Shown here: positions 5,171 through 45,923 of the stretch, in pieces
Layout: the number at the start of each line of letters is the position of its first letter
Position numbering within the stretch: the stretch's first letter is position 1
Origin: Terriglobales bacterium
Lineage (GTDB): Bacteria > Acidobacteriota > Terriglobia > Terriglobales > Acidobacteriaceae
Direction: 5' to 3'
DNA: 64,000 nt
NCBI GenBank assembly: GCA_035573675.1
Contig: DATMAB010000010.1
Span: forward strand, 186,001 to 250,000
Notes under the pieces: generated by a model
What the model saw: only the letters and a program-made list of their open reading frames with translations
The model's database searches: none
What the model was told of the DNA's origin: nothing
Program-made: the position numbers and the translations under genes

Positions 5171-5608
5171 AGTCAGTGGCCAGACCCAGTTGCCAGTACC
5201 CAGTTCGAGCTACTGGCTGCTGGCTCCTAGCTTAATGCATTGACGGGGAAGGCTTTCCGCCGTCCGCTTTCCGCCGTCCGCTTTCCGTCGTCCGCTTTCC
5301 GTCAAGCAGAAGCTTCCGCCTCGGATTGACGCGGATGAACGCGGATTGGGCAAGGGACAAGCGAAGCCGAAAGCGGACAGCGGAAGGCGGAGAGCGGCGT
5401 TGCGGGCTTTGCCCGCAACGCCTAGCACCTTCGTGCCACCCGAATAGCACTCTCGGTCAATTGTCCGGTTGGCCGAACGGACGGGAAAATTGTTGCGCTT
5501 GTCCCCCAGCGGTTCTGCCCCGCTTCTCTCAAGCTGCTGAGGCAGTCAACAGGGCCCCCTGAGTTGCGGCGACGTGTCGCCTGACGACGCGTCCCGGAAG
5601 AGGTTTTT
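5171..5608. repeat. intergenic region with a 14-nt tandem repeat and a perfect 12-bp hairpin
   Basis: No gene seen. It holds CCAGTTGCC/GGCTCCTAG-type units (5173-5230). A 14-nt unit GCTTTCCGCCGTCC follows, repeated 3.7 times (5252-5303). Next is an ATCCGCG-type module in inverted orientation (5322-5347) with further copies of the CTTTCCG type. A 12-bp perfect stem (5396-5407 with 5411-5422, loop TTT) follows; it has no T-tract after it, so termination is doubtful. The last 170 bases precede the Kelch/PKD gene and show no clear promoter. Confidence 0.75.
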
Positions 5609-16188: not shown

Positions 16189-16750
16189 GCTCAATGCCTC
16201 CAGAATTGCGGTGTGAGATGCCCCCAACCCCTCGTGAGGGACCGAGAAGTATGCGCAGCATCTTAATGTCACAGCCTTCCGTGATGCAATACCACCAAGG
16301 TGCCTGCCCCGCCCTGGCCGACCGGCCCCTTAACCCGTTGATGCAGTAGCTTCTAGCTCCTGGCTTCTAGCTCCTGGCTTCTAGCTCCTGGCTCTTGGCT
16401 CCTGGCTAATTGCTATCGCTCTCCGCTTTGCGCTTTCCGCTTTCCGCCTTCAGTTCACAGTTCATAGTTCGCGGCTCGCAGTTACTTGTTCCGCGCCCAT
16501 CCGCGTGCATCCGCGGCGAAAGGCTTTTGTCCTTTTTTCTTGGCTCTTGGCTCCTGGCTAATTGCTATCGCTCTCCGCTTTGCGCTCTCCGCCTTCAGTT
16601 GACAGTTCATAGTTCGCGGCTCGCAGTTACTTGTTCCGCGCCCCTCCACGTTCATCCGCAGCGAAAGGCTTTTGCCTTTTCACGGATAGCGGATGGCGGG
16701 GAGCGCCTTTTGCCTTTTCTGGCCACTGGCCACTGACCACTGGCCACTGA
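16189..16750. repeat. tandem composite repeat arrays (two about 150-bp near-copies) plus module F
   Basis: No gene. After about 150 bp of ordinary sequence, 16347-16535 contains GGCTCCTGGCTTCTAGCTCC units (C), CGCTTTCCGC units (D), AGTTCACAGTTCATAGTTCG (H) and an ATCCGCGTGCATCCGCGG block (E). 16541-16690 repeats C, D, H, E almost word for word, so the composite has duplicated in tandem. Module F (CCACTGGCCACTGACC) follows at 16721-16757. Confidence 0.85.
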
Positions 16751-17170
16751 TCACTGCTTTCTGGGTTCTTCGCTCGACCAGGCGGCGAACACCAGCATGC
16801 GCCAGTCGCCCGCCGCTTGCCGCTGCCACACCACCAGGTAGCGGCCGCGGTCGCGTTTCCGGCTGCCGTCGTCCTGGTGCAGGCTCACGGCATAGCGGCC
16901 CACGTCGTAGGCCAGGTCGCCGGCGCGCTGGATGAAGTCGATCTGCAGCGTGAAGTCGCTCGCGCCCTTTTCCAGCGACCCGCGCAGGAACTCGCGGATG
17001 CGCGCCCGCCCGTGGATAGGATCATCGTGCGCCGGCAGGTAGAGCGCGTCTTTGGCGTAGAGGTCGACCACCTTGTCGAGGTCGCCGGCGTTCCAGTCGC
17101 GCATCCACTGCTCGCTCAGCTTCCAGATGACGACTTCGGCGTCCTCGTACGGATTGGCGGCACTGCTCAC
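16751..17170 (-). CDS. NTF2-like (DUF4440 / SgcJ-type) protein
   Basis: 139 residues. MSSAANPYEDAEVVIWKLSEQWMRDWNAGDLDKVVDLYAKDALYLPAHDDPIHGRARIREFL is the classic start of a DUF4440 NTF2-like cone fold: two helices, then DxxA-LxxP and the G-R-x-I helix. The ending is GRYLVVWQRQAAGDWRMLVFAAWS. These proteins bind small ligands or act as isomerases, and no catalytic dyad can be assigned here. The stop codon follows directly on a CCACTGA-type repeat. Confidence 0.85.
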   Translation of the reverse strand: MSSAANPYEDAEVVIWKLSEQWMRDWNAGDLDKVVDLYAKDALYLPAHDDPIHGRARIREFLRGSLEKGASDFTLQIDFIQRAGDLAYDVGRYAVSLHQDDGSRKRDRGRYLVVWQRQAAGDWRMLVFAAWSSEEPRKQ

Positions 17171-30172: not shown

Positions 30173-31699
30173 ATGAGTGCCACTGAAGCGGCGGTGCCGA
30201 CTGAGCCGGGCGCGCAGGTTCTTTTTTCCTCTCCCGTTTCCTCTTCCCGACTTTCCACGCGGCGCGTGTTCCACTGGGTGGTGCTGGTGTCGCTGCTGGG
30301 AGTTACGGCACGACCCATCCTGGTGCCGGATTTCTGGTGGCATCTGCGCACGGGACAGTGGATGGTGGAGACGCGCAGCATCCCGCACACCGATCCTTTT
30401 TCCTACACCGCCGCCGGCAAGCCGTGGGTGACGCATGAGTGGCTATCGGAAGTGCTGATCTGGGCCCTGTACCGGGTGGCCGACTGGGGCGGCCTGATCC
30501 TGTTCTTCAGTCTGGTGATTGCGGCAGCGTGGTGGATCGTGGACCGGCGGCTGGAGGGCCAGCCGTTCGTGGCCGGATTCGCGCTGCTGCTGGGCGCCTT
30601 CTCGACCGCGCCGGTGTGGGGCGTGCAGCCGCAGATGTTCACCATGCTGCTGGCCAGCATCTTCCTGTGGCTGGCCGACGCGTACGCGCGCGACGGCCAG
30701 GCGAAGCGACTGGTGTGGATGCCGCCGCTGATGGTGCTGTGGGTGAATCTGCACGGCGGATTCCTGGCGGGTCCGGCGCTGGTCGGAGTTTTGGCAGCGG
30801 GACTGGTCCTGGATGAACTAGTGGAGGGCCGGGGATGGAGGGCGGCGTTCAAGCGCGCATTTCCACTGGCCGCGGCAGCGGCAGCGTGCCTGGCGGTGAT
30901 TCCGCTGAATCCCAACGGCGCACGGCTGTACGCGTATCCGTTCGAGACGCTGCAATCGGAGGCGATGGCGGAAAACCTTCGCGACTGGCTCTCGCCGGAC
31001 TTCCACAAAGCCAGCATGCTGCCGTTTGCAGTGCTGATTTTCGCCACTGCGGGGGCGATGGCGATCTCGCCGCGGCGGGCACGGGTGAGCGATGCGCTGT
31101 TGCTGGCGGTGACCGGGTGGCTGGCGCTGCGTTCCGGCCGGCACATCCCGCTCTTCGCATTGGTGGCCACGCCGCTGCTGGCGGCGCACGCCTGGGACTG
31201 GGTGCGCCGGCAGAGCTGGGGAAGTTGGATGGCGCAGCCGGAAACTCCCCTGACGCCGACCAAGAGAACAACGAACGCCGTGGTGCTGGGCGTGCTGGTC
31301 GCGGCCTGTGGGTTTTATTTCGCCGATGTGATTGCCAGCCAGCCGCAAGCGGAGTCGGAGATATTTCCGCGGCGCGCCGTGGAGTTTCTGAAACACGAAA
31401 AGCCTCCGGCGCCGGTGTATCACCGCTATGACTGGGGTGGCTACCTGATCTGGCACCTGTATCCGCAATATCGCAGCTACATCGATGGCCGGGCCGACCT
31501 CTACGGCGATGCGTTCATGATGGAATATTTCCGCACGTATCGGGGACGGCCGGGGTGGCCGGAAACGCTGGAGCGCTTCGGGGTACGCACGGTGATGGTG
31601 GAACCGCACATGCCTATCGCCAGTCTGCTGCGGCAGGACCCGGGCTGGGCGAACGTGTACGAGGACGACCAAGCGGTGGTGTTCGTGAAAAAACAGTAG
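30173..31699 (+). CDS. multi-pass membrane protein, glycosyltransferase-like
   Basis: 508 residues with about ten membrane helices. An early exposed loop has acidic and aromatic residues typical of polyprenyl-phosphate-sugar transferases (VPDFWWHLRTGQWMVETRSIPHTDPFSYTAAGKPWVTHEWLSE). A soluble C-terminal part follows (VYHRYDWGGYLIWHLYPQYRSYIDGRADLYGDAFMMEYF). Such proteins are common in acidobacteria as an uncharacterised GT-C-like group. Substrate and partner are unknown. The gene stands alone. A CTTTCCG-type repeat (31738-31765) follows its end. Confidence 0.75.
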   Translation: MSATEAAVPTEPGAQVLFSSPVSSSRLSTRRVFHWVVLVSLLGVTARPILVPDFWWHLRTGQWMVETRSIPHTDPFSYTAAGKPWVTHEWLSEVLIWALYRVADWGGLILFFSLVIAAAWWIVDRRLEGQPFVAGFALLLGAFSTAPVWGVQPQMFTMLLASIFLWLADAYARDGQAKRLVWMPPLMVLWVNLHGGFLAGPALVGVLAAGLVLDELVEGRGWRAAFKRAFPLAAAAAACLAVIPLNPNGARLYAYPFETLQSEAMAENLRDWLSPDFHKASMLPFAVLIFATAGAMAISPRRARVSDALLLAVTGWLALRSGRHIPLFALVATPLLAAHAWDWVRRQSWGSWMAQPETPLTPTKRTTNAVVLGVLVAACGFYFADVIASQPQAESEIFPRRAVEFLKHEKPPAPVYHRYDWGGYLIWHLYPQYRSYIDGRADLYGDAFMMEYFRTYRGRPGWPETLERFGVRTVMVEPHMPIASLLRQDPGWANVYEDDQAVVFVKKQ

Positions 31700-32047
31700 C
31701 CAGGTGCCAGTGGTGAGTGGCTATAGGAAGCCTCCCCATCCGCTTTCCGCTTTCCGCTTTCCGCTGCACGCCCCGCTTTCCCGGGTCACACCGAGACGCT
31801 ACCCCCACTATCAGGCCGGGGGAACCTCCACTGTCGCCCGGGTAGAGCAGCCACGTTGGTGGGGTGTCTCAGAAATCGGACAGTGGGGTGGGTTACCAGC
31901 CAGATTACCCGCGTAATACATAGAAAATAAACCAAATAAAGGTTCGTTCCAAGGGCTGGATTTGCCCCAAAAATGCAATCTACGGAGGCCGAAATCGAGC
32001 GCTGGGGGCGTTTTCGCTCACCGGGGTTCGGGAGGAGACAAACAAAC
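31700..32047 (+). promoter_or_regulatory. upstream region of the Tad operon with structured DNA/RNA
   Basis: No gene. After a D-type repeat (31738-31765) come nested inverted repeats: GAGAC/GTCTC (31793-31797 with 31866-31870), CCCCAC/GTGGGG-type pairing (31802-31808 with 31859-31864), and CTACCC/GGGTAG (31799-31804 with 31840-31845). The last two compete. An A/T-rich patch (31914-31942) could hold the promoter, but no confident -35/-10 pair was found. GGGAGGAG before the ATG is the first pilin ribosome binding site. Confidence 0.45.
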
Positions 32048-32218
32048 ATGAAGGACGTTCTTCGCAGGATGTGGCGGGATGACGAGGGCCAGGACGTGGC
32101 GGAATACGCGCTGATGCTGGCGGTCATCCTGGTGGTCGTGATCGGGGCGGTGCGCCTGATCGGCACCAACGCGAGCAACATTTTCAACGCTGCGTCGGGC
32201 CAGCTGACCACCCCGTAG
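32048..32218 (+). CDS. Flp-type (type IVb) pilin 1
   Basis: 56 residues: a short basic leader (MKDVLRRMWRDDEG) cut before QDVAEYALMLAVILVVVIGAVRLIG. The Glu-Tyr pair at +5/+6 after the Gly (GQDVAEY) is the Flp signature recognised by the TadV prepilin peptidase. It is the major subunit of the Tad pilus used for adherence and surface colonisation. The ribosome binding site GGAGGA lies upstream. It is a near-duplicate of the next gene. Confidence 0.93.
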   Translation: MKDVLRRMWRDDEGQDVAEYALMLAVILVVVIGAVRLIGTNASNIFNAASGQLTTP

Positions 32219-32364
32219 GCGAGGCGGGGGAAGGAGGCAATTCGGGCCTGGACCCGAGCACCCCTTGCGCTTCCCCAGGCTTTCGGAGTCCTATCGCCGG
32301 GATAGGGCGGCAGTGGCAGTACCCGGCTGTCCAACCAAACCGTAGAAGCCAACCGGAGGAGATC
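32219..32364 (+). ncRNA. inter-pilin leader with a predicted pseudoknot
   Basis: CCTATC (32290-32295) pairs with GATAGG (32301-32306). The 5-nt loop GCCGG (32296-32300) is complementary to CCGGC at 32323-32327, forming an H-type pseudoknot 38 nt before the second pilin start. The upstream leader of pilin 1 contains a related CTATCAGGCCGGG...CCCGGG arrangement. A regulatory role is inference. Confidence 0.35.
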
Positions 32365-32535
32365 GTGACAGAACTCGTCTGGAAGATGTGGAAGGATGAC
32401 AAGGGCGAGGACGTCGCCGAGTACGCGCTGATGCTGGCGGTGATTCTCGTCGTGGTGATCGGGGCGGTGCGCCTGATCGGCACCAATGCGAGCAACATCT
32501 TCAACGCCGCGTCGGACCAGCTGACCACCCCGTAG
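32365..32535 (+). CDS. Flp-type (type IVb) pilin 2
   Basis: 56 residues from GTG 32365, with GGAGGAG 5 nt upstream. Leader MTELVWKMWKDDKG, then EDVAEYALMLAVILVVVIGAVRLIGTNASNIFNAASDQLTTP, which differs from pilin 1 at only two positions of the mature part. This is a recent tandem duplication that kept the second copy intact, with different leaders. A terminator follows, so the two pilins can be expressed at a higher level than the assembly genes. Confidence 0.93.
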   Translation: MTELVWKMWKDDKGEDVAEYALMLAVILVVVIGAVRLIGTNASNIFNAASDQLTTP

Positions 32536-32644: not shown

Positions 32645-33154
32645 ATGTCGGAATGGTTGTGGCAAGCCTTCGTGATCGCCTTCGTGGTGACCTGTGCCAT
32701 CGGCGACGCGCGCTGGCGAAAGATTCCGCGCGCGTTCACCACCTGCGGCGTGGTGGCCGGCCTGGCGTTCCACTTGTGGAGCGGAGGTCTGGCGTCGGCG
32801 GCTGCGGCCGCGTTTCTGGGATTCGCCGTGGGTCTGGCGTTCTTTCAGTTGGGCGCCATCGGCGGCGGTGACGTCAAGCTGATGGCGGCCCTCGGAGCCC
32901 TGCTGGGGTTGCAACCCTGGCTGGTGGCCATGCAGATCGCCGTGTTCGTGGCGGCGCTGATGGCGGTGGCGCAGATCTTCCGGCGCGGAGCCTGGCGGCA
33001 GACGCTGGAGAACATGCGCGAGATCCTGCGGGCGCTGAAAGCGCAAGGGCTGCGCGCCCATCCCGTGCTGCATGTGAAGAACGCCGCCATGATCCGAGCC
33101 CCGTTCGGCGTGGCAGCGGCCTGCGGCACGCTGTTCGCACTGGTGGCGCGATGA
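32645..33154 (+). CDS. prepilin peptidase (TadV/CpaA, A24 aspartic family)
   Basis: 169 residues with four or five membrane helices. The two catalytic aspartates are in AIGDARWRKIPR (GD-x-R-x3-IP) and GAIGGGDVKLMAALG (GGGDxKLMAALG). It cleaves the leaders of the Flp pilins and TadE-like pseudopilins at the inner membrane. As usual for TadV it lacks the methyltransferase domain of PilD. Its stop overlaps the next start (ATGA). Confidence 0.93.
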   Translation: MSEWLWQAFVIAFVVTCAIGDARWRKIPRAFTTCGVVAGLAFHLWSGGLASAAAAAFLGFAVGLAFFQLGAIGGGDVKLMAALGALLGLQPWLVAMQIAVFVAALMAVAQIFRRGAWRQTLENMREILRALKAQGLRAHPVLHVKNAAMIRAPFGVAAACGTLFALVAR

Positions 33155-33567
33155 GGAACCAGCGCGGTTACGAGCGCGGCGCTACGCTGGTGGAGGGCGC
33201 CATCACGATTCTTCTGTTCTTCACCCTGATTTTGGCGAATATCGAATTCGGACGGGCGTACAATCAGTACCAAGTCATGACCGACGCGGCGCGCGAGGGA
33301 GCGCGATTCTCGGTAGCGCCCTTCAGCGGCACCAATACGCTCCCGACGACGACCGCCGTGCAGGCAGAGGTCCAACGGTTTCTGGACAGCGCGGGTGTGC
33401 GGGGAGCGACAATCTCGGTGACGCAGAACGTGACCGCCACGATAAATAATGTGCCCGTGACTCATACGCAGGTAACGGTGAACGCCCCGTATACGTTCTT
33501 CTTTTTCCGCTTCGGATCGGTGGGCCTGAGCACAACCGCTACGATGCGCAACGAGACCTCCCCCTGA
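33151..33567 (+). CDS. TadE-family pseudopilin
   Basis: 138 residues. RGATLVEGAITILLFFTLILANIEFGRAYNQYQVMTDAAREGARFSV shows the G|xxxxE processing motif (G-ATLVE), one membrane helix and the conserved AAREGAR segment of TadE-like proteins. It is a minor pilin processed by TadV and needed for Flp pilus assembly. It overlaps the prepilin peptidase gene by 4 bp. Confidence 0.9.
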   Translation: MRNQRGYERGATLVEGAITILLFFTLILANIEFGRAYNQYQVMTDAAREGARFSVAPFSGTNTLPTTTAVQAEVQRFLDSAGVRGATISVTQNVTATINNVPVTHTQVTVNAPYTFFFFRFGSVGLSTTATMRNETSP

Positions 33568-33585: not shown

Positions 33586-34050
33586 ATGAGGTCGACCCAG
33601 TGGCAATCGAGGGAGCGGGGAACGCAGATCGTGGAGATGGCAGTGGCCCTGCCACTCTTGCTGTTTATGGCGCTGGTGGTGATCGAGGGGGCCAGCCTGG
33701 TCCGCACCCACCAGGTGCTGAATAATGCCGCCCGCGAAGGTGCGCGGTTCTCCATCATCCTGACCAACAAGGACAATCCCGCAACAGGCTTCAATGGAAC
33801 CAATGCGATCAAGGACCGGGTGGTGGCCTACGCCGCGGCCAACGGAGTGACCATCACCAGAAGCAACGTCACCATCAACCAGTGCGCGTTGATCACCTCG
33901 CCGTCAGGGCTGACTTATTCGACATCGCTGGTGGTGGTGCAGCTCAACTATACGCTGCGGTATCTGCCGCGCATCCCGTTCACCAGCGCACCGACCACGG
34001 TGCCGCTCGCCGGACGGGCACAGTTCCGAAACTTCTACGGGTGCAACTGA
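33586..34050 (+). CDS. second TadE/TadF-family pseudopilin
   Basis: 154 residues. RGTQIVEMAVALPLLLFMALVVIEGASLVRTHQVLNNAAREGARFSI has the same processing site and NAAREGAR motif as the gene before it. The C-terminal 90 residues differ (a beta-rich domain with a Cys pair). Two such minor pilins are normal for Tad loci. The gap to the next gene is 14 bp. Confidence 0.9.
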   Translation: MRSTQWQSRERGTQIVEMAVALPLLLFMALVVIEGASLVRTHQVLNNAAREGARFSIILTNKDNPATGFNGTNAIKDRVVAYAAANGVTITRSNVTINQCALITSPSGLTYSTSLVVVQLNYTLRYLPRIPFTSAPTTVPLAGRAQFRNFYGCN

Positions 34051-34064
34051 GCTAGGAGGATCGT

Positions 34065-34910
34065 ATGGACCGGAGACGGTTCTTAGTCGTGGGAATGATC
34101 GCGGTCGTGCTGGCGGCGCTGGTGAGTTTCGGAGCGCTGCGAGTCCTGCGCGGCGCGCAGGCCGATGCAGGCAGCACCACCAACGTGGTGGTGGCCGCCA
34201 AGGCGCTGCAGGTGGGGCAGCAGATCCAACTTTCCGATCTGCAACTGGCGCGGCTGCCTACCGCGCAACTGCCCCAGGGAGTGTTCGGCGACCTGAAGGA
34301 AGTGGCAGGCCGGGGTGTGATCGTGCCCATTTCGGAAAAGGAAGTGGTGCTGAACAGCAAGCTGGCGCCGCGCGAGGCCGGCGCCGGCCTGCCGCCGAAG
34401 ATCCCGCAGGGTATGCGGGCGCTTTCCGTGCGGGTGCGGGAGGACATATCCGTGGCCGGATTCGTGCAGCCGGGCACACGGGTGGATGTGTTGCTGACGG
34501 GCATTCCGCCCGGCTCGCCTTCCGGCCAGACCGTGACCACCACCGTGCTGGAGAACGTCGAAGTGCTGACGGCCAACCAGGACCTGCAAGCCAAGGAGCC
34601 CTCCAAGAAGGACACTACCGTGGTGACCCTGCTGCTTTCACCGGAGGACGCGCAGAAGCTCACCCTGGCCAGCACCCAGGGTTCCATTCACCTGGCATTG
34701 CGGAACCCCCTGGACAGGGACGAGGTGAAACCGAAGGGAACGTACTATGGGGACTTGTACGTAGCCGCGGGCGCGCAGCCGCAACAGGCCAAGGCCGCGG
34801 TGTCCGGAGCGTCGACCCGGCGAGCCAGGCACGCGGCTGTGCCGGAACCGAGCAAGGTTTACGTAGTGGAGATGATCCGCGGGGATAAGCGTGACGAGGC
34901 AAAATTCTAG
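34065..34910 (+). CDS. cpaB: Flp pilus assembly protein CpaB/RcpC
   Basis: 281 residues. An N-terminal membrane anchor (FLVVGMIAVVLAALVSFGALRVL) is followed by an SAF domain (VVVAAKALQVGQQIQLSDLQLARLP...) and the CpaB core (MRALSVRVREDISVAGFVQPGTRVDVLLTGIPPG...TTTVLENVEVLTANQDLQAKEP...TVVTLLLSPEDAQKLTLASTQGSIHLALRNPLD). It is periplasmic and works with the secretin. The gap to the secretin gene is 30 bp. Confidence 0.95.
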   Translation: MDRRRFLVVGMIAVVLAALVSFGALRVLRGAQADAGSTTNVVVAAKALQVGQQIQLSDLQLARLPTAQLPQGVFGDLKEVAGRGVIVPISEKEVVLNSKLAPREAGAGLPPKIPQGMRALSVRVREDISVAGFVQPGTRVDVLLTGIPPGSPSGQTVTTTVLENVEVLTANQDLQAKEPSKKDTTVVTLLLSPEDAQKLTLASTQGSIHLALRNPLDRDEVKPKGTYYGDLYVAAGAQPQQAKAAVSGASTRRARHAAVPEPSKVYVVEMIRGDKRDEAKF

Positions 34911-34940: not shown

Positions 34941-36470
34941 ATGACACAAACCGAGAGGCGGTGGCTGTCGTTGGGGAGTCTGGTAGTGATGGCGGCGATG
35001 GCAATGGCCCCGGCAGCCTGGGCGATGCAGGCGGCGGCCGAAGCCGGAGCGATGACGCCCAAAAAGGCTCCGACCGGCCTGGGACAGGCGATTTCGGGCG
35101 CCCAACAGGGAGCCGCCGAGGCACTGGGATCGGTGACGCCCGGGGCTCCGACGGCCACGGGCGCCCCACAAGCCACTGGGCCCGCCGCGGAAGCCGGCAT
35201 GCCGCAGGAGGGCTTTCCGGAAGGCTCGGTGCCGTTGCGGGTGCTGGCGGGCAAGTCCATCCTGGTCAACACCACGGACCGGCTGAAGCGCGTGGCGGTG
35301 AGTGATCCGACCGTCGCCGATGCCCTGGTCGTGACCCCGACCCAGATCCTGGTGCACGGTCGCCAGCCCGGCGAGGTCTCCCTGGTGCTGTGGGATGAGG
35401 CCGAGCGCTCCCGCAGTTTCGACCTGCGGGTGGATGTGGACGCCACCTCGGCGGCGGAGGAGATCCATCGCATCTTTCCCAGCGAGAGGATCAACGTATC
35501 GGCCTCGCGCAATGCCATCGTGCTTTCCGGGCACGTGAGCAGCGAGGAAGTGCAAAAGAACGCCGGCGCCCTGGCCGGAGCCTACTCCAAGTCCGTGGTC
35601 AACGTGCTGACCTACGGTCCCTACGAACCGCAGGAAGTGCTGTTGCAGGTGAAGTTCGCGGAAGTCAACCGCGACGCTCTGGAGCGCTACGCCGTCAACC
35701 TGTTCGCGACCAACGTCTCCGTCGTCGGCCAGACGGGTACGGGCAGCCGGCCGCCCGTCAACCTGACCGACACCGACGTCAAGGACGTGCCGGAAGGCTC
35801 CTTCAGCAGCGACCTGCAGATCGACCCGCTGAACGTGTTCCTGTTCCGCCCGGATGTGCACGTGGGCGCAGCCATCCAGGCCCTGAAGCAGAAGTCGCTG
35901 GCGCAGATCCTGGCCGAACCGAACCTGATCGCTTTGAACGGCAAGGAGGCCAGCTTCCTGGCCGGCGGCGAGTTTCCCATCCCCATCGTGCAGGGCGGAG
36001 GCAACGTAGGCAACGTCACGGTCCAGTTCAAGGAGTTCGGCGTGCGGCTGAGGTTCACGCCCTACATCATGCCCACGGGAAACATCCGCCTGAAAGTGGC
36101 GCCGGAGGTAAGCCAACTGGACTTCGCCAACGGCGTCACCATCTCCGGCTTCACCATCCCCGCCCTGGTCACGCGACGCGCGGAGACCGAGTTGGAGTTG
36201 CAGGACGGACAGAGCTTCCTGATTGCCGGCTTGATTGACAATCGCGTGGCCAACGTGGCCTCGAAGATTCCCGGGCTGGGAGACATCCCGATTATCGGGT
36301 ATTTGTTCCGGCAAAAGTTCAATCAGAAGACCACCGGCGAGCTGATGGTGCTGGTGACGGCGCGCAAAGTGTCGCCCAGCGTCGATCTCCCGCCGGGACC
36401 GCAATTCCCCCAAGAATTCCTGGACAAGCAGAAATTCGACAAACCCAAACCCACGGGAGGGGGCAAGTGA
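34941..36470 (+). CDS. cpaC: type IVb pilus outer-membrane secretin (CpaC/RcpA)
   Basis: 509 residues. Signal peptide region SLGSLVVMAAMAMAPAAWAMQA, then an Ala/Pro-rich linker. The pilus secretin N-domain follows (VLAGKSILVNTTDRLKRVAVSDPTVADALVVTPTQILVHGRQPGEVSLVLWDE), then a BON-like segment, then the secretin barrel (VQFKEFGVRLRFTPYIMPTGNIRLKVAPEVSQLD...ELELQDGQSFLIAGLI...VASKIPGLGDIPIIGYLFRQ). It forms the outer-membrane pore for the pilus. The stop TGA and the next ATG share one base. Confidence 0.95.
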   Translation: MTQTERRWLSLGSLVVMAAMAMAPAAWAMQAAAEAGAMTPKKAPTGLGQAISGAQQGAAEALGSVTPGAPTATGAPQATGPAAEAGMPQEGFPEGSVPLRVLAGKSILVNTTDRLKRVAVSDPTVADALVVTPTQILVHGRQPGEVSLVLWDEAERSRSFDLRVDVDATSAAEEIHRIFPSERINVSASRNAIVLSGHVSSEEVQKNAGALAGAYSKSVVNVLTYGPYEPQEVLLQVKFAEVNRDALERYAVNLFATNVSVVGQTGTGSRPPVNLTDTDVKDVPEGSFSSDLQIDPLNVFLFRPDVHVGAAIQALKQKSLAQILAEPNLIALNGKEASFLAGGEFPIPIVQGGGNVGNVTVQFKEFGVRLRFTPYIMPTGNIRLKVAPEVSQLDFANGVTISGFTIPALVTRRAETELELQDGQSFLIAGLIDNRVANVASKIPGLGDIPIIGYLFRQKFNQKTTGELMVLVTARKVSPSVDLPPGPQFPQEFLDKQKFDKPKPTGGGK

Positions 36471-37672
36471 TGCGTGGCCGAAGCAGGAATCGCGAGCGTG
36501 GCATGACCATCGTCATGCTGGCGGTGTTTCTGGTGGTGTTGTTCGCGATGGCGGCGCTGGCGGTTGACCTGGGGTTCGCCTACACGGCACGGACCAGCGC
36601 GCAGCATGCAGCGGACGCGGGCGCGCTGGCGGGCGCGTACACGTTCGCCTTTACCGGCCTGAGCCAGCCGGGCGCCGCCATTGACGCGGCGCGGGCCGCG
36701 GCCCAAGCCAATTACGTTCTGGGCGCGCCGGCGACCATCGCGGCCACCGACGTCACGGTAGACATTCCCAACCGCAGGGTGACGGTAACCGTCCCGCGCT
36801 CCGGAACGAGCGCGATCAGCACGGTCTTCGCGCGCGTGCTGGGCATCCGCTCGCTGGATGTCGTGGCCCGGGCCACGGCGGAAGCGCTGTCGGCCGGCTC
36901 GGGCTCGCGGTGCGTCAAACCGGTGTTTCTGCCCACGACCATCCTCAGCCCCAACAATCCGGTTACGGCCTGTAACAACGGCGAGAGGATTTTCGACTCG
37001 AACGGGAACATCACGAGCTTTGCCCAGAGCCAATTGGGAACCTGCCACGAGATCCGTCCGACGGACCCGAACGACGAGGCCCTGCAGAACCCCTTGGCGC
37101 CCGGGCAGTTCTATTCACTGGATTTCGGGGCCGGCGCCGATGCCTACCGCTGCACCTGGGCAGGATGCCTGAACCAGTGTCCCAGTGCGGACGAGGACAT
37201 CATCGAGTGCGGGAACGATTATCCCCTCAAGACCGGCGACATGGTGGGACCGGTGCAGCAAGGCGTGACCGACCTTATCGGCGATCCCGCGGATACCTGG
37301 TGGAGTAGCTGGTCGCCGACGAACCAGCAGTATGTGAACGAGCCGTCAAAGACGCTGGTGGTCGACACCCCTTCGCTGGTGCTGGCTCCCGTCTATGACA
37401 ACTGCGCGCAGGTCATCAACTCCGGAACCGCTGGGCAAAGGGTAGTCGTGATCGGTTTCGTGACCATCTTTGTAGACGGCCTGGGACCCCGAATCGGCTG
37501 TCCCGGAGGCGGGGGCCGGGGCGGCGGTATCAACCCGAATGAGAGGGTGGCTGCACACCTGGTCGGGATCACCACCTGCGCCGGCGTAGGCGGCGGGGGG
37601 GCCGGGGCGGGAGGCAGCGTCTCAGGGCCGGGCGGTTATCCCATCCGGCTGATCCAGACGCCTACCACCTGA
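36470..37672 (+). CDS. TadG-like pilus assembly protein
   Basis: 400 residues from ATG 36470, with GGGAGGGGG upstream. RNRERGMTIVMLAVFLVVLFAMAALAVDLGFAYTARTSAQHAADAGALAGAYTF is the typical TadG N-terminus: a membrane helix and an AADAGALAGA motif. The Glu at +5 is Met, so it is not processed like TadE. The large periplasmic part has about ten cysteines (CVKPVFLPTTIL...CHEIRPTD...CTWAGCLNQC...) and a Gly-rich tail. No von Willebrand A domain is evident, unlike the longest TadG proteins. Confidence 0.85.
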   Translation: MRGRSRNRERGMTIVMLAVFLVVLFAMAALAVDLGFAYTARTSAQHAADAGALAGAYTFAFTGLSQPGAAIDAARAAAQANYVLGAPATIAATDVTVDIPNRRVTVTVPRSGTSAISTVFARVLGIRSLDVVARATAEALSAGSGSRCVKPVFLPTTILSPNNPVTACNNGERIFDSNGNITSFAQSQLGTCHEIRPTDPNDEALQNPLAPGQFYSLDFGAGADAYRCTWAGCLNQCPSADEDIIECGNDYPLKTGDMVGPVQQGVTDLIGDPADTWWSSWSPTNQQYVNEPSKTLVVDTPSLVLAPVYDNCAQVINSGTAGQRVVVIGFVTIFVDGLGPRIGCPGGGGRGGGINPNERVAAHLVGITTCAGVGGGGAGAGGSVSGPGGYPIRLIQTPTT

Positions 37673-37720: not shown

Positions 37721-38884
37721 ATGCCTGCGTTAGCTGTAGTCATTCTGGCGCTGGACGAGGAACAGCGGACCATCCTGAAGATGCTGGTGGATGGCACCGC
37801 TATCGCCCGCACCACCCATGCTGTGCCCGGCTACCCGGTAGGGGCCACCGACCCCATCATCCGGCGTATTCACGAGGCCCGCCCGGATGTGCTGCTGGTG
37901 GACATCCCCTCGCATGACCCTACGCCCGGCCTGCGAGCCATCGAGCTGCTGCATGCGGAATTGCCGGCTGCGGCGGTGTTCGCCGTAGGGGAAATGGCCC
38001 AGCCGCAGGTGATCGTGGCCGCCATGCGGGGCGGAGCGTCGGAGTTTCTGGAGCGCCCGGTGGGCACCAACCACCTGCTGGAGGCGCTGGCGCGGCTGAC
38101 CTCGGCGCAACGCAAGACGCGCACCAACGGCGTGCGCGGCCGCGTGTTCACGGTGGTGAACGCCAAGGGCGGCAGCGGCGCGACCACCATCGCGGTGCAG
38201 ACGGCGACGGCCCTGCAAGGCATGCAGGGGGGAGTGGCGCTGGTGGATCTGGCTCCGCTGGGCCATGTGGCCCTGCATCTGAACGTGAAGCCGCAGTTCA
38301 CGGTGGTGGACGCCATCCGCAACCTGCACCGCCTGGACGGAGCCCTGCTGGAAGGCTTCATGACGCGCGACGAGCGCGGCATCCATCTGCTGGCGGGCGT
38401 ACAGGAGCCGATGATGGTGGAGCCGTCGCACGCGGAATTCGCGCGCCTGTTCGACATGCTGGTGAGCCACTACCGGCACGTGGTGGTGGACGCTTCCTCG
38501 CGGCTGGACGCCATCACCCGCATGGTGAGCGACCTTTCCGACACCGTGCTGCTGGTGGCGCATGCCGACGTGGCTTCGCTGTGGAGCGCCAACAAGGTGC
38601 AGAACTTCCTGAACGACGGGAGCGGCCGCGAGCGGCTCCGCCTGGTGCTGAACCGCTACCGCAAGATCTCCGGCTTCACCGACGCCGACGCCGAAGCGGC
38701 CACGCACACCAAGCTGCTGTGGAAGATCCCCAACAACTACGCGGCCATCTCCAACGCCATCGACCGGGGAGTTCCGGTGATGCAGACAAACCATTCGGAA
38801 GTCTCGCGCGCGTTCCAGGGTTTGGCGACGGCGCTGACTCAGGGAGCAACCGCCAAACCCAAGAGCTGGACCCCATTCCGTTGA
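37721..38884 (+). CDS. cpaE: CpaE/TadZ-type localisation ATPase
   Basis: 387 residues. An N-terminal receiver-like domain (AVVILALDEEQRTILKMLVD...RPDVLLVDIPSHDPTPGLRAIELL...GGASEFLERPV) is followed by a MinD/ParA-type ATPase. The deviant Walker A is NAKGGSGATTIAVQTATAL, with Ala for the canonical Lys; this is common in CpaE. A second motif is VVVDASSRLDAIT, and the end is NRYRKISGFTDADAE...KIPNNYAAISNAIDRG. It positions the pilus machine at the cell pole. Confidence 0.93.
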   Translation: MPALAVVILALDEEQRTILKMLVDGTAIARTTHAVPGYPVGATDPIIRRIHEARPDVLLVDIPSHDPTPGLRAIELLHAELPAAAVFAVGEMAQPQVIVAAMRGGASEFLERPVGTNHLLEALARLTSAQRKTRTNGVRGRVFTVVNAKGGSGATTIAVQTATALQGMQGGVALVDLAPLGHVALHLNVKPQFTVVDAIRNLHRLDGALLEGFMTRDERGIHLLAGVQEPMMVEPSHAEFARLFDMLVSHYRHVVVDASSRLDAITRMVSDLSDTVLLVAHADVASLWSANKVQNFLNDGSGRERLRLVLNRYRKISGFTDADAEAATHTKLLWKIPNNYAAISNAIDRGVPVMQTNHSEVSRAFQGLATALTQGATAKPKSWTPFR

Positions 38885-38901: not shown

Positions 38902-40197
<1,296 letters not shown>

Positions 40198-40223: not shown

Positions 40224-41192
40224 ATGGTCTACCTCGTCGTCCTCGGCTTGTTCATCCTGGTGGTGATTCTCGTCTTCACCGTGGCCGGGGTCTTCGAAGA
40301 ACGGGACGTGCGAGCGCGCTCCATGCGCGAGCGGTTGCTCTCGCTGGAACGGGCGCAGGAGCGCGGCCCCTCGGAAGAGCTGGCCCTGTTGCGGGAAGAG
40401 ATCCTGAGTGAGATTCCGGCCCTGAACCGGGTGCTGCAGCAGTCTCCCCGCATCAGGCAGTTGCAGCGCTTCCTGGATCAGGCGGATACGGGCACGCGGG
40501 CGGGCAAGTTCCTGATGATCTCGCTGGCGCTGGCGATGATCTTCGGGGCGCTGGCCATGGAATGGTCGAATATCCCCACTCTGGGCCTGGCTATGGCCCT
40601 GCTGGGTGGCCTGATGCCCTACTTCTATTACGCCTACCGGCGGGCCCGGCGCTTTCAGAAGTTCGAGGAGATGTTTCCGGAAGCCATCGAGCTGCTGTCG
40701 CGGGCCACGCGCGCCGGCCACGCGTTCACCACGGCCATCGAGTTGATCGGCAATGAGCTGGGCGAGCCGGTAGCAGGAGAGTTCCGCAAACTGTTCGAGG
40801 AGCAGAAATACGGATTGCCGGTGCGCGATGCGCTGCTCAACCTGGGCGAGCGTGTCCCGCTGGTGGACGTGAAGTTCTTCATCACCACCGTAATGCTGCA
40901 ACGCGAGACGGGCGGGAACCTGGCCGAGATCCTGGACAAGCTCTCGTACCTGATCCGCGAGCGCTTCAAGATCCTGCGGCAGGTCCGGGTTTACACCGCG
41001 CAGGGCCGGCTGACGCTGCTGATCCTGATGCTGCTGCCCCCGGGCGTGGTGCTCATGTTCGCCTGGATGGACTACAAGTTCATCGAGCCGCTGTGGACGG
41101 ATCCCATCGGGCATGCGCTGATCGCGGCGGGCGTCGTGATGCAAACCATAGGCTTCTTTCTGATCCGCAAGATCATCCGTATCCGGGTTTGA
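40224..41192 (+). CDS. tadB: Flp pilus inner-membrane platform protein TadB
   Basis: 322 residues. N-terminal helix ([23 protein letters not shown]), a pair of helices in the middle, the T2SSF core ([91 protein letters not shown]), then two C-terminal helices. It forms the inner-membrane platform with TadC. The gap to the next gene is 4 bp. Confidence 0.94.
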
Positions 41193-41196
41193 CCAT

Positions 41197-42105
41197 ATGG
41201 CACTGACCAACATTCTGATTGCAGCCGCGATGTTCGTGACGCTGGCGGCAGCGTTCTTCTTCCTGATGGCCGCCGCTGTTTCCCCGGCGTCGCTGCTGGG
41301 AGCGCGCTTGCGCGCCCTCACCGGCGTACGGATCGAGGAAAAGAAGCCGAAGATGCAAGAGCGCCTGGAACAGGCGCTCACTCCGCTGGCCAAGGCGCTG
41401 CCTGCTTCCCCGGCAGAACTTTCGCGGATGCGTCTCATGCTGGTGCAGGCCGGGTTCCGCGAGCCCCGGCACGCCACCATCTTCTTCGGCTCGCGCGTGG
41501 CCCTCTTGGCGGCGGCGGTGATTTTCGTGCTGAGCACGAACCTGTTCGCGCGCGACGCCATGTTTGCGGTGGGCATCGTCGGGCTGGCCTATACCTTGCC
41601 GACCATCTGGCTGCGACAGAAGGTGAAGGCTCGCCAGTTGGCCATTCGGCTTGGACTCCCGGACGCGCTGGATCTGGCCGTGATCTGCGTGGAAGCGGGC
41701 CTGGGCCTGGACCAGGCGGTGCAGCGTGTGGGCGACGAAATGCGCCATGTCCACAAGGACCTGTCCGATGAGTTCGGATTGGTGAACCTGGAGATGCGCG
41801 CCGGCAAGCCGCGGGCGGAAGCCCTGCGCAACCTGGCGGTCCGCACGGGCGTGGACGACATGCGGGCGCTGGTGGCGGTGCTCATCCAGACCGACCGCTT
41901 CGGTACCAGCATTGCCACAGCGCTGCGCGTGCACTCCGACGCCCTGCGCACCGAGCGCCGGCAGCGGGCCGAGGAAGCCGCGGCCAAAACGACCATCAAG
42001 ATGGTGCCGGTGCTGGTGTTCTTCGTTTTTCCGTCCATGTTCTTCGTCAGCCTGGGACCGGCGGCCATCCAGCTGATGCGGAACCTGCTGCCGGCGTTGA
42101 AGTAG
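41197..42105 (+). CDS. tadC: Flp pilus inner-membrane platform protein TadC
   Basis: 302 residues. It has the same architecture as TadB: first helix [25 protein letters not shown]2SSF core [107 protein letters not shown], and a C-terminal helix pair. It is the partner of TadB. A micropeptide gene follows after 8 bp. Confidence 0.94.
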
Positions 42106-42192: not shown

Positions 42193-42603
42193 ATGGCCGC
42201 AGGGTCCAACGCGAACTCCAAGCGCCGCGGCTACGCCTACAACCGCACCCGACAGGCCTTCCTGGCCAGTGAGCTGCGCGTCGCCGATACTCATGCCGGG
42301 CGTCTGCGCGGCCTGATGGGCCGCAGCAAGGAAAGCTTCCCGCCCGGATCGGGCCTGTGGATCATTCCCTGCCATGGCGTGCACACGCTGGCGATGCGCT
42401 TTCCCATCGACGTGGTGTACGTGGACGCCAACCAGGTAGTCGTGGGCCTGGAAGAGAACGTGCGCCCGTGGCGCATGACGCCAATGGTCATGGAAGCGGC
42501 CACGGTGCTGGAACTGCCGCCTCATACCATCTTTAACACCGGCACCAGCGTCGGCGATCAACTGGAGATAGTCCGGGAACGGAACCACCAGCCCGCCCCA
42601 TGA
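42193..42603 (+). CDS. DUF192 protein
   Basis: 136 residues. ELRVADTHAGRLRGLMGRSKESFPPGSGLWIIPCHGVHTLAMRFPIDVVYVDANQVVVGLEENVRPWRMTPMVMEAATVLELPPHTIFNTGTSVGDQLEI is a complete DUF192 domain with the GLMGR and GVHTxxMRFPIDVVYVD motifs. The family is uncharacterised, but it is often encoded near Tad pilus genes. There is no signal peptide, while many homologues have one. Its stop overlaps the next ATG (ATGA). Confidence 0.9.
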   Translation: MAAGSNANSKRRGYAYNRTRQAFLASELRVADTHAGRLRGLMGRSKESFPPGSGLWIIPCHGVHTLAMRFPIDVVYVDANQVVVGLEENVRPWRMTPMVMEAATVLELPPHTIFNTGTSVGDQLEIVRERNHQPAP

Positions 42604-44714
42604 GCGACAAGCCCAAGCTGCTGGTGGACTGGGAGCCGCGCTGGCGCAACTTCACCACATCTCTCCGCCCCGCCCTGCAACGCGAAGCGCCCTTGCCGGT
42701 GAACTACTTTCGCCGCAATGGCGGCGCACCCGCCCTGTTGGTGGAGTGGGACCGGCCACTGGCCGGGTTCTCGGCACTTGGGATCGCCCTGGGTCGCGAT
42801 CCGGCGCTTCCCGCCTACTATTTCGAGGACTTCCAACCGGCCCTGCTGGTGGAGTGGGAAGAGGGCTGGGGGAACTTCTTCTCCTGCGTCGCGCCGGCGC
42901 TGAAGCTTTCCGCCCCGCGCCTGGCCAACGAATGCGATCACCTCCCGCTGACGCCACGCGGGCTGGTGGGGGCCCTGGCCGTACTGGCTGCGTCGCTGGC
43001 GTTCGCCACGCTGCTGGCCTGGCGCATGGCTCCGGCTCCGCAACGGCAACACATCGCTTTACTTCCGCTGGAACCGCTCATCTATGCGCCTCCCGTCGTG
43101 GCGCAGCCACGCGCCCGCGCGCTGACGCCGCGGGAACTGGCACGGGCGCGAGAGCGCCAAGCTCGGCAGCCGACGCCGAATTCACGCGAAGCGAGCAAGC
43201 CCGAACCGAACAAGCCGGAAGAGCCGCCGCAGGTGCAAGTGGTTCTGCAGCCTTCGCCCAACCTTCCGCGCATGGAAGATGTGGGCGGCGCGGAAGCCGG
43301 CCGGTCGGGCCGTTCCGGAGGACGCGAAGCCTTCCACCCCACGCAGGTCATTCGCATCTCCCGCGGGCCGCGGCTGGTGGAGCGCGTAGCCGACGCCCCC
43401 AAGCTGAACCTCCCCAAACGCAACGACGCCGTGGCCAACCTGGTCGCGGTGGCTGCGGCGCCTCCACCGCCGCTTCCCATGGCTGCGGTAGCTCGCGGCA
43501 CACGGCTGGGAATCTCCATGCCGGAGCCCAGGGTGGTCGCTCCGGCGCCGAACCCGCGGCGCTCCGTTGCCTCCCTCAACGTGCCCCAGACGCCCACGGT
43601 CGTCGTGCCGCCTCCACCCGACATTCGCGTTCCCCCGGGCACGGTGACCGACCCCAAGCTGGCCGTGCCCTTGCCCACCTTGGCGGCGCCTTCGCTGGGG
43701 CAGCGGAGCCTGCGAGAAATCGCCACCGGCACGACCGGAACCGGCATCATCCCTGAAGTCGCCTCCGCGGGATCGCCCCAGGGCACGGGCAACGCTGCTT
43801 CCGAACCCGACGTGGCTTCCGACGATCCCAACGGACGCCCCGAAGGGCAGGTGGCCGCAGCGCACGGCGCGGGCACCGATCCCGAGGGCTCGCCCGACGG
43901 CACGGCTGAGGCCAGCGGCCTCGTGATCTCCACCAGCCCCGGCGATGCCGTCGGCGTTCCCGGAGAAAGCGTGGGCACGCTGGCGATGTCGCCTGCCGGT
44001 TCAGGCACCACCGGGGCGGGTGGCTCCGGTGGCGGCACCGGAATCGGTGTTGGAACCGGATCAGGGAGCGGGGCGCACGGCACCGGACCGGGCGCAGCCG
44101 GATCGGGAACGGGATTTGGCGCGGACGCCGGCGCACACGGCGGCATTTCTCCCGGGCCAGGACCGGGCGGAACGGGCAGCGGCACCAGCCGCAGCGGGCT
44201 GGCCGGGGTCACCATCCGCGGCGGAGTCGTCAACCTGCCGAGCTTCGCCACGGCCGGAGCTCCGGCGCCGCCGGGCCGTACGCCGACCGAAGGGCGGCGC
44301 GTACCCACCATCACGGTGATTGCGACGCCGCGCTCCGGTGGCGCTCTCCCGACGTACGGGCTGCTGAAAGGCCCTCGCGTGTACACCATCTACATTCAGA
44401 CCCGCCTGGGCACGGGCGTGCTTCAGTACTCCGAGCGGCCCAAGGACATCCGCGGCTTTCAAAGCGACCTCACCGCACCCGAGCCGCTGCGCGCCGACTT
44501 CCCTCCCGGCACCCCTATGGCGCGCGTGATCGTCGCCTGCGTGCTCGACCGTTCCGGCTTCCTCAAGGACCTGCGCGTGGTCAGCGCCGCTTCCCAGGAG
44601 GTCGCAGGCAAAGTGATGGAGGCGCTCAAGGACTGGCGCTTTCGCCCCGTCCTGCGCGGCAACGAAGTCATCGAGGTGGACGCGCTGCTGGGCTTTTCGG
44701 TGGGAACGCAGTAG
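42600..44714 (+). CDS. TonB-like protein with triple N-terminal repeat
   Basis: 704 residues. The N-terminal 105 residues contain three repeats of one unit: PKLLVDWEPRWRNFTTSLRP, PALLVEWDRPLAGFSALGIA and PALLVEWEEGWGNFFSCVAP, about 40 residues apart. A single membrane helix follows (GLVGALAVLAASLAFATLLAW), then a long Pro-rich and Gly/Ser/Thr-rich periplasmic span. The C-terminal 90 residues (TPMARVIVACVLDRSGFLKDLRVVSAASQEVAGKVMEALKDWRFRPVLRGNEVIEV) match a TonB C-terminal domain. Energy-transducing TonB needs ExbB/ExbD, which are not here. It ends the Tad operon, and a link to the secretin is possible. Confidence 0.85.
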   Translation: MSDKPKLLVDWEPRWRNFTTSLRPALQREAPLPVNYFRRNGGAPALLVEWDRPLAGFSALGIALGRDPALPAYYFEDFQPALLVEWEEGWGNFFSCVAPALKLSAPRLANECDHLPLTPRGLVGALAVLAASLAFATLLAWRMAPAPQRQHIALLPLEPLIYAPPVVAQPRARALTPRELARARERQARQPTPNSREASKPEPNKPEEPPQVQVVLQPSPNLPRMEDVGGAEAGRSGRSGGREAFHPTQVIRISRGPRLVERVADAPKLNLPKRNDAVANLVAVAAAPPPPLPMAAVARGTRLGISMPEPRVVAPAPNPRRSVASLNVPQTPTVVVPPPPDIRVPPGTVTDPKLAVPLPTLAAPSLGQRSLREIATGTTGTGIIPEVASAGSPQGTGNAASEPDVASDDPNGRPEGQVAAAHGAGTDPEGSPDGTAEASGLVISTSPGDAVGVPGESVGTLAMSPAGSGTTGAGGSGGGTGIGVGTGSGSGAHGTGPGAAGSGTGFGADAGAHGGISPGPGPGGTGSGTSRSGLAGVTIRGGVVNLPSFATAGAPAPPGRTPTEGRRVPTITVIATPRSGGALPTYGLLKGPRVYTIYIQTRLGTGVLQYSERPKDIRGFQSDLTAPEPLRADFPPGTPMARVIVACVLDRSGFLKDLRVVSAASQEVAGKVMEALKDWRFRPVLRGNEVIEVDALLGFSVGTQ

Positions 44715-44748: not shown

Positions 44749-45492
44749 TCATGAAGCTCGTGAGCGCCGGCTCTGCCAGGAAGAGCGCAAGAGCTGGAGG
44801 GCGTCCAGGATAGCGACGCGTGCGCCCAGCTTGCTCTTGCCGGCGCCGCGGGGCGCGAACACGAACGGTACTTCTTCCAGGCGCCGCACGCGGCCGCGGA
44901 TCATCACTTCCAGCAGGATCTTGAAGCCGAGCGGCTTCAGCTCCACACCTTCGATCACTTCACGGCGGAGGGCGAAACAGCCGGAGAGCGGATCGCGCAC
45001 CTGGCGGACGCCGGCGGGCAGCGCCAGGCGCACCAGGAAGGTGGCGAACTTCGACCCCAATCGGCGCACGATATTCCAGCGCGGGATGTCGCCGCCCGCG
45101 GTGTAGCGGCTGGCTACGGCCAGATCGGCGCCGCGCTCCAGAGCCTCGAGCAGGCGCGGAATCACGTCCGGCGGGTGCTGGCCGTCGGCGTCCATGGCCG
45201 CCAACACGGGAGCGCTTGAAGTCTTCCAACCGGCCACCACCGCCGTCGCCAGGCCCCGCTCGCCCTGGCGGCGTACGGAACGGACCCGGCCGCCTGAAGC
45301 GGCGGCCAGGGTGTCGGCGATCGAGCCCGTGCCATCGGGACTGTCGTCGTCCACGATCACGATCTCATGCTCCACGAGCCCGGCGGCGCTGAAGACCTCC
45401 TGCAGCGTTCGCACGACACGCTCGATGTTCGCCGCCTCGTTATATGTGGGCAGTACGACGGCGAAGCGTGGCGGGCGGGCTTCTCGCATCAT
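44749..45492 (-). CDS. polyprenol-phosphate mannose synthase (Dpm1-like GT2)
   Basis: 247 residues; tandem ATGs at 45492 and 45489. GT-A fold landmarks: VVLPTYNEAANIERVV, VIVDDDSPDGTGSIAD, AAMDADGQHPPDVIPRLL (DxD), SRYTAGGDIPRWNIVRRLGSKFATFLVR, and DPLSGCFALRREVIEGVELKPLGFKILLEVMIRG. It lacks the C-terminal membrane helices of longer homologues. It charges a polyprenyl phosphate with mannose (or a similar sugar) as donor for the GT-C enzymes upstream in the same cluster. Confidence 0.92.
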   Translation of the reverse strand: MMREARPPRFAVVLPTYNEAANIERVVRTLQEVFSAAGLVEHEIVIVDDDSPDGTGSIADTLAAASGGRVRSVRRQGERGLATAVVAGWKTSSAPVLAAMDADGQHPPDVIPRLLEALERGADLAVASRYTAGGDIPRWNIVRRLGSKFATFLVRLALPAGVRQVRDPLSGCFALRREVIEGVELKPLGFKILLEVMIRGRVRRLEEVPFVFAPRGAGKSKLGARVAILDALQLLRSSWQSRRSRAS

Positions 45493-45496
45493 CCCT

Positions 45497-45923
45497 TCAC
45501 GATTCCGCGACCGCAACCGCGGACTCGGGCTCCGGCGCCGCGACCCGCCGCGGCCGGAGTACGGCCGAAAGCGCGTAGAAGGCGATGGCCAGCAGCATCA
45601 ACCTTCTCTTAGGGCTGGAACGAACATGGCTGAAATCCTATCGACGAGGCGTCTTCTTCAAAGAGTGTGCGGGCGTCATCGACGTACGCAGTCACCCGCG
45701 GATCACCATAGGGATGCTCAGGATGGTATCGCTTGCCCGGCGCCAGAATGACCGGGTCAATCTCAACTGCATCCACGTGCGTAGCCCCGTGCCGCAGCGC
45801 TGCGGCTACATCATTCCTGCCGGAAGCCATGCGTAGTTGACCTTGAGGGGTCGAGTCCTCTTGCAAGACGAGATTGGCTCCCAACTCTAGTTCTGACGCT
45901 CCGCGCCGCGGGTTCGGGCGCAA
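45497..45923 (-). pseudogene. remnants of two genes: a membrane-protein tail and a spermidine-synthase-like fragment
   Basis: The stretch 45497-45598 encodes only MLLAIAFYALSAVLRPRRVAAPEPESAVAVAES, a lone final helix and tail with no head, ending 5 bp before the Dpm1 start. In another frame 45609-45923 encodes GRNDVAAALRHGATHVDAVEIDPVILAPGKRYHPEHPYGDPRVTAYVDDARTLFEEDAS. This is a recognisable SAM-binding spermidine-synthase-like core (motifs GxNDVAAAL, AVEIDP, DDAR) with both ends missing and the glycine loop damaged (MASGRND). The two pieces look like the result of a deletion. No functional product is expected. Confidence 0.7.

Follow-up and report, generated by a model that had tools for sequence, protein, structure and literature searches.

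A TonB-like protein conserved behind the tad operon of Acidobacteriaceae, its cytoplasmic head unit tripled in one genus, as a candidate connector of the pilus machine

The gene that closes a tad operon in a Terriglobales bacterium encodes a protein resembling TonB, and its position raises the question of what a TonB-type protein does among genes for a pilus. The window analyzed here is the whole stretch of 64,000 nucleotides from contig DATMAB010000010.1 of this member of the Acidobacteriaceae. A preliminary description, made from the letters alone, had placed the gene at the end of a Tad operon, an assignment borne out by the Pfam matches upstream and by the linkage found in relatives (below). 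The operon reads as follows.

31973-32218 and 32365-32535, forward strand: two Flp-type pilin ORFs, assigned by eye from the ORF list
32645-33154, forward strand: prepilin peptidase (A24; Pfam E 2.7e-16)
33151-33567 and 33586-34050, forward strand: two TadE-like genes (Pfam TadE E 2.2e-12 and 9.9e-12)
34065-34910, forward strand: RcpC/CpaB (Pfam RcpC E 3.6e-29)
34941-36470, forward strand: secretin (CpaC/RcpA) with PF13629 N-domain, BON and Secretin domains (Pfam Secretin E 1.3e-44)
36467-37672, forward strand: TadG-like protein (PF13400; Pfam E 7.1e-10)
37721-38884, forward strand: TadZ-like ATPase (Pfam AAA_31; TadZ_N below cut-off)
38902-40197, forward strand: TadA ATPase (T2SSE; Pfam E 4.3e-61)
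40224-41192, forward strand: TadB (T2SSF; Pfam E 1.3e-16)
41197-42105, forward strand: TadC (T2SSF; Pfam E 6.5e-19)
42193-42603, forward strand: DUF192 gene (PF02643; Pfam E 9e-19), its 3' end overlapping the TonB-like gene
42600-44714, forward strand: TonB-like gene, an ORF of 704 amino acids

The ATG of the TonB-like gene overlaps the stop codon of the DUF192 gene (ATGA, 42600-42603), and its 3' neighbor is a family-2 glycosyltransferase gene on the opposite strand, in convergent orientation. A search for CpaD (PF09476), positive in the Caulobacter control, found no match in any of the 21 gene-bearing genomes, so the outer-membrane side of these systems seems to differ from that of Caulobacter.

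Along its length the protein divides into a cytoplasmic head of 118 residues, a single membrane helix, a long linker and a C-terminal domain.

42618-42734, forward strand: head unit 1 (LLVDW, residues 7-45), 41.9 bits with a profile built from relatives only
42735-42842, forward strand: head unit 2 (LLVEW, residues 46-81), the most decayed, 16.1 bits with the same profile
42843-42956, forward strand: head unit 3 (LLVEW, residues 82-119), 38.9 bits, the longest match of the three
42954-43028, forward strand: single membrane helix, residues 119-143, predicted as a helix and from hydropathy
43029-44267, forward strand: linker of 413 residues, 15% Pro, 15% Gly and 14% Ala
44268-44711, forward strand: C-terminal domain of 148 residues, an extra beta hairpin plus a TonB C-terminal fold (AlphaFold2, Foldseek, VIA-align)

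The triple repeat ahead of the membrane helix, on which the preliminary description had centered, is real. The profile that recovers all three units has 40 columns and was made from 11 relatives, all from outside the window's genus; the best score among 2,000 shuffles of residues 1-120 was 10.3 bits. The units had been put at about 40 residues each; three units stand, with exact spacings of 39 and 36 residues between the motifs that begin at residues 7, 46 and 82. At the DNA level, 36-nucleotide copies lie at 42618, 42735 and 42843, spaced by 117 and 108 nucleotides, the second copy 64% and the third 81% identical to the first. Unit 2, which has lost its second Trp and gives a match one residue shorter, is the most drifted of the three. 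Unit 1 ends in LPVNYF and unit 2 in LPAYYF; only unit 3, adjoining the membrane helix, retains the ending typical of the family (RLANEC; consensus RLAGE), and it is this unit that aligns with the single head unit of the orthologues. Seven of 40 head positions are invariant in an alignment of 13 rows, and Pfam places no family over its cut-off on the head in the proteins scanned. A model of the N-terminal part (52 rows) has a low mean pLDDT of 65 and one helix per head unit, its membrane helix being modeled at mean pLDDT 95 (residues 121-130) and 97 (residues 131-140). The helical moments of the three predicted head helices were reached by 847, 555 and 9 of 5,000 shuffles, which weakly supports the idea of amphipathic helices in the head.

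To place the protein among its relatives, we counted orthologues after merging identical C-termini, applying a head cut of 1e-8 and leaving the window protein out, which gave 62 proteins. The triple repeat was considered as a hallmark of this family and is ruled out as such: 61 of the 62 distinct relatives carry one unit, and only the protein of the sister species carries three. Across 150 genomes of the family, more than one head unit within a single gene occurs only in the window's genome and the sister species, with three units each; these are the two genomes of the window's genus that were examined. By sequence, then, a single unit is the normal state among orthologues and the triplication is specific to the genus. 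The variation in copy number that the preliminary description proposed to look for is thus present. Its premise that TonB proteins normally have only a few residues in this place did not hold, since the orthologues carry a head unit each and a cytoplasmic head of at least about 45 residues is usual among the TonB-like proteins read from these bacteria.

A search with the N-terminal 143 residues found the protein in 12 of 61 genomes, the window's own counted. Of the 150 family genomes, 42 contain strong matches to the head profile (43 in all, E < 1e-16) and 45 contain strong matches to a C-terminal profile (46 in all, E <= 1.3e-38). A named genome collection yielded no match to the single window protein and 56 loci to a domain alignment; these are titled Acidobacteriota (Acidobacteriaceae, Terriglobia, Terriglobales, Sulfotelmatobacter and similar MAGs), with one labelled Chloroflexi. 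In a sample of 247 genomes from the phylum, the C-terminal profile (E 1e-10) made six matches: two full members plus four weaker matches, two of them within the window's family and two in other families. Both full members belong to the family, and the clade is therefore confined to it in this sample.

In nearly all orthologues the gene keeps close company with tad genes. In 60 of the 62, retrieved by sequence and independently of gene context, a DUF192 gene, TadC or both precede it in the same orientation at a distance of up to 7 kb; DUF192 is present in 59 of these 60, at most 270 nucleotides from the head in 55. The remaining two are L105, where the upstream sequence is too short to show tad genes, and L101, where 6.4 kb upstream holds none. 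Four loci stand outside the count, along with headless fragments cut at contig ends: L062, whose head match of 17 residues lies inside an unrelated 1,105-residue frame and fails the 1e-8 cut; L045, which is tad-linked with a divergent head that fails the same cut; and L056 and L057, tad-linked loci in which the head was not found. The order Secretin-(TadG)-TadZ-TadA-TadB-TadC-DUF192-TonB-like recurs at the relatives' loci that reach that far.

Presence of the gene follows the pilus genes across genomes as well. RcpC (PF16976) is found in 95 of the 150 family genomes, and the TonB-like gene in 43 of these 95 versus 2 of the 55 that lack RcpC (G066 and G133). Among the matches listed, 18 more of the genomes with RcpC show a weaker C-terminal-profile match no farther than 20 kb from that gene, where random placement in 4.4-Mb genomes would give about 0.9 such genomes; in 14 of the 18, again among the matches listed, the distance is 2.0-2.2 kb. 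Ten of these 14 loci, picked for nearness to RcpC, show a second tad layout in which the TonB-like gene is divergent from CpaB (10/10), flanked by more tad genes at those loci that extend far enough. At most 34 of the 95 RcpC genomes have neither form among the matches listed. All of 21 genomes encode ExbD; 3 have it on the contig that carries the TonB-like gene, and the 25 kb around that gene contain no ExbD in any of the 21 (some contigs are shorter). On the question of whether such genes track with tad loci or with ExbB/ExbD, the answer is tad, and the protein accompanies the tad operon as a conserved element at its end.

The resemblance to TonB proposed in the preliminary description is upheld by structure prediction. 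From a 150-residue stretch containing the C-terminal domain, with 71 rows, AlphaFold2 produced a model (mean pLDDT 82) in which a beta hairpin precedes a core made up of two strands, one helix and additional strands. The best Foldseek matches are TonB C-terminal domains (top 6i97_D, E 3.6e-4), and VIA-align gives Z 8.1 and rmsd 3.6 over 80 aligned residues, so a TonB fold is predicted. VIA-align also returns TolA domains, at Z 4.3-5.5. The 50 VIA-align rows listed contain no HR/GspB fold, an absence that excludes nothing. The protein scores below the family cut-offs for Pfam TonB_C (PF03544; 19.4 bits versus 24.6) and TIGR01352 (14.4 bits versus 27.1). At a Pfam threshold of E 0.1, TonB_C is the only family to match the window protein, which thus has no T2SSB/HR domain match.

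Compared with the TonB of E. coli and P. aeruginosa (PF03544), the protein shares the N-terminal membrane helix, the Pro-rich periplasmic linker and the C-terminal fold; it differs in its sub-threshold TonB_C score, the extra hairpin, the lack of a Ser-X3-His motif, the 118-residue cytoplasmic head and a gene placed behind a tad operon. In type II secretion, OutB has an inner-membrane anchor and an HR domain that binds the N0 domain of the secretin, according to the part of PMC9239104 consulted. The window protein resembles GspB/OutB/ExeB in its inner-membrane anchor and long periplasmic part, but its C-terminal domain is TonB-like rather than HR, and it is therefore not a member of GspB/OutB. 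Within the Tad systems themselves, RcpC/CpaB bridges the inner membrane and the secretin in P. aeruginosa (PMC12307814, in part), and outer- and inner-membrane complexes are joined in diverse ways, many systems being without a clear CpaI (PMC13170226, in part). The likeness to RcpC/CpaB and CpaI is one of proposed function, the joining of platform to secretin treated in the same portions of PMC12307814 and PMC13170226; RcpC/CpaB is a separate gene in the same operon, and the TonB-like protein would be an additional connector. At the level of titles and abstract openings, mostly of open-access papers, the literature held no account of a tad-linked TonB-like protein, and the available parts of PMC3174227 and PMC6668835 make no mention of one.

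A head of this kind is found in other TonB proteins too. One group (L046-L049, L122-L151), headed by LLVEL-EPW..F.RNL.DLL...FWPDVFV, occurs in 33 of 60 family genomes. Its head matches the tad-linked head in hhalign (96.6%, E 5.8e-10; best of 40 column-permuted control profiles, 28%), and the two are homologous. Exclusivity of the head to pilus-linked TonB proteins is ruled out by this group. Its members differ from the tad-linked protein in keeping Ser-X3-His (30/30 read, of 35 matches) and in their surroundings, the four loci with wide flanks (L046-L049) having no match to the window's tad genes. A further group (L164, L167-L196) bears one to four units of PWW.SL..NLRD....LPPLELTS.PV before the membrane helix, and the window genome itself encodes a triple-headed example (G000:C15, L164). 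Nine PWW-type open frames of 242-266 residues have three units and a hydrophobic stretch at the C-terminal end. The PWW unit is present in 15 of 149 genomes of the phylum sample, all 15 from the window's family. The repetition of the head in some members recalls the window protein, but the direct match to the tad head is not significant (hhalign 4.3%; permuted controls up to 60%); the unit matches the LLVEL-EPW head at 97.7%, and its tie to the tad head runs only through that intermediate. The preliminary description had held that a broad occurrence of the repeat in TonB proteins unlinked to pili would count against its proposal. A homologous head is indeed carried by the LLVEL-EPW group in those 33 genomes, with no match to the window's tad genes in the four loci with wide flanks, and a related module occurs in two to four copies in further TonB proteins, which counts in part against the proposal; the tracking of the window's protein with tad genes stands.

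The membrane helix bears on whether the protein is driven by the ExbB/ExbD motor. In TonB, Ser16 and His20 (the Ser-X3-His motif) contact ExbB and the His is essential (PMC12215075, in part). Among 52 tad-linked rows, the place of the TonB His is filled by Glu in 41, Gln in 6, His in 3 and Leu in 2, both Leu rows being the window protein and that of the sister species. Ser-X3-His is kept in the tad-linked proteins L015, L016, L045 and L066 and in 10 of 10 TonB-like proteins divergent from CpaB. The window genome has 12 TonB_C matches; in five other TonB-like proteins read from it, the place is Gln in two and His in three. One with Gln (L163) adjoins two ExbD genes, so a changed His place alone does not show uncoupling from ExbB. 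In a C-terminal tree of 82 rows, built by a quick method and drawn with a midpoint root, the tad-end proteins form one clade (98). L045 and L015, both with His, are its outermost rows, and L016 and L066, also with His, sit in an open fork beside the window's genus; 36 of the 79 inner branches of this tree are open, and L056 is flagged as a long branch.

The reading that best fits these observations is that of a TonB-derived tether of the Tad machine running from inner to outer membrane, all of whose contacts we infer. That the protein is some structural component of the Tad pilus machine in these Acidobacteriota, derived from TonB, has in our judgment about an even chance of being correct. The membrane helix, LLVEW head, 413-residue linker and predicted TonB-type end are features computed from the protein, and the conserved place behind TadC-DUF192, the tracking with Tad genes and the departure from Ser-X3-His are observed. 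A long linker with a TonB-type end would fit a protein that ties the inner membrane to the secretin or to a partner bound to it. The linker would cross the periplasm, and the C-terminal domain, as already suggested in the preliminary description, would bind the outer-membrane secretin at its periplasmic end, or a secretin-bound partner, tying the secretin to the inner-membrane platform in a role that, by analogy, may be like that of GspB/OutB. The head would dock onto the platform (TadZ/TadA/TadB/TadC) from the cytoplasm. Two further copies of the head unit arose in the window's genus, which would provide three docking sites per chain and perhaps a higher avidity or number of partners. With RcpC/CpaB, the bridge of P. 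aeruginosa (PMC12307814, in part), present in the operon, a second tether may not be needed. Also against this reading are the Ser-X3-His of the tad-linked L015, L016, L045 and L066, the Gln of the ExbD-adjacent L163, the RcpC genomes (at most 34 of 95) with neither form of the gene among the matches listed, and L101 with its tad-free upstream region.

The protein could instead remain energy-coupled, a TonB recruited to the pilus whose ExbB/ExbD are encoded elsewhere, so that the proton gradient drives it to pull on the secretin, or on some Tad protein, for gating or for secretin assembly. Its TonB fold and architecture agree with this, as do the presence of ExbD in 21 of 21 genomes, the Ser-X3-His of L015, L016, L045, L066 and all ten CpaB-adjacent proteins, and the Gln of the window genome's ExbD-adjacent TonB, a state shared by six of the 52 tad-linked rows. 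We nevertheless think it unlikely, given Glu in 41 of those rows, Leu in the window's genus and the absence of ExbD from the 25 kb on either side of the gene in all 21 genomes, some of whose contigs are shorter. Lower still in probability we would put a role in signalling or surface sensing within the Tad machine, in which tension on the C-terminal domain alters the head and so reports the state of the pilus to partners such as TadZ. Seven invariant positions of 40 in the 13-row alignment and a single unit in 61 of 62 proteins would befit a head with such a task, and homologous heads occur in other TonB proteins; against this, a partner is not known and the head has no Pfam domain over cut-off in the scanned proteins. 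An ordinary TonB serving outer-membrane nutrient receptors and simply sharing the operon would account for the TonB-type C-terminal fold in a genome where TonB proteins are many (12 TonB_C matches), but it is very improbable in light of a tad linkage conserved in 60 of 62 orthologues, the rarity of the gene without RcpC (2/55 genomes) and scores under the Pfam and NCBIfam TonB cut-offs.

Returning to the tether, the fullest form of that reading is that a TonB-type protein was taken into the Acidobacteriota Tad machine to connect across the periplasm, that most of the clade no longer has the motor contact, and that the protein uses a cytoplasmic docking module, variable in number from one to four units among Acidobacteriota TonB proteins, whose valency rose to three in the window's genus. 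We offer this version tentatively, as possible but on balance doubtful.

Conserved in a large Acidobacteriota family at the end of the tad operon, this TonB-type protein provides a concrete connector candidate, and one that can be deleted. Homologous or similar heads are spread over several kinds of TonB-like protein in these bacteria, and the residue of the motor contact is preserved in several states, His, Glu, Gln and Leu. If the proposed reading is true, these genomes would show a TonB-type protein put to a new use, perhaps apart from its motor.

Repeated cytoplasmic heads also occur in TonB-like proteins outside the window, where the unit is of another type. A further TonB-like protein of the window's own genome (L164:3635-4876, minus strand, on contig G000:C15) carries a triple head built of three PWW.SL.GNL.DLLFP..LPPLELTS units. 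Three PWW-type head units together with a C-terminal hydrophobic stretch were found in nine open frames of 242-266 aa each (loci L170, L171, L173, L174, L175, L181, L182, L187, and L190), and both of the three-unit frames scanned (L170 and L171) lacked any Pfam family over the cut-off.

The arrangement of the tad genes varies among the relatives. At loci L152-L161 an alternative order was observed in which a TonB-like gene is divergent from CpaB, secretin and DUF192 follow, and, in loci extending far enough, TadA/B/C-DUF192 lies on the opposite side of the TonB-like gene. Four additional loci (L050, L052, L053, and L054) hold TonB-like genes whose C-terminal domain is related; these are located near TadE-like genes, recognized by tblastn, or TadG-like genes (L053:8631-10508; Pfam Tad, E 2e-6), with no TadA/B/C matches within the locus stretch examined. 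The tad-linked TonB-like gene was also present on a contig labeled Chloroflexi (L093, VBIW01000030.1), which is possibly a misbinned Acidobacteriota contig.

Several further features accompany the tad operon of the window:

30173-31699, gene for a 508-aa protein
31973-32535, two ORFs for Flp-type pilins whose C-terminal parts are almost the same
42193-42603, DUF192 (COG1430)
44749-45516, family-2 glycosyltransferase gene

The window also contains arrays of 7- and 14-base units (5252-5301, 9326-9402, 16349-16764, and 31739-31765) and a 145-base tandem repeat (16389-16680).

DUF192, which is not known to have a role in Tad, is here a near-constant companion of tad, occurring in 59 of the 60 linked loci (distinct strong-head orthologues with DUF192 and/or TadC upstream). 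The 508-aa protein, judged from its sequence to be probably multi-pass, matched zero Pfam families at E 0.01, and many of the loci read have a relative of it flanking the tad genes on the upstream or the downstream side. Together with the glycosyltransferase gene, this protein could point to pilin glycosylation.
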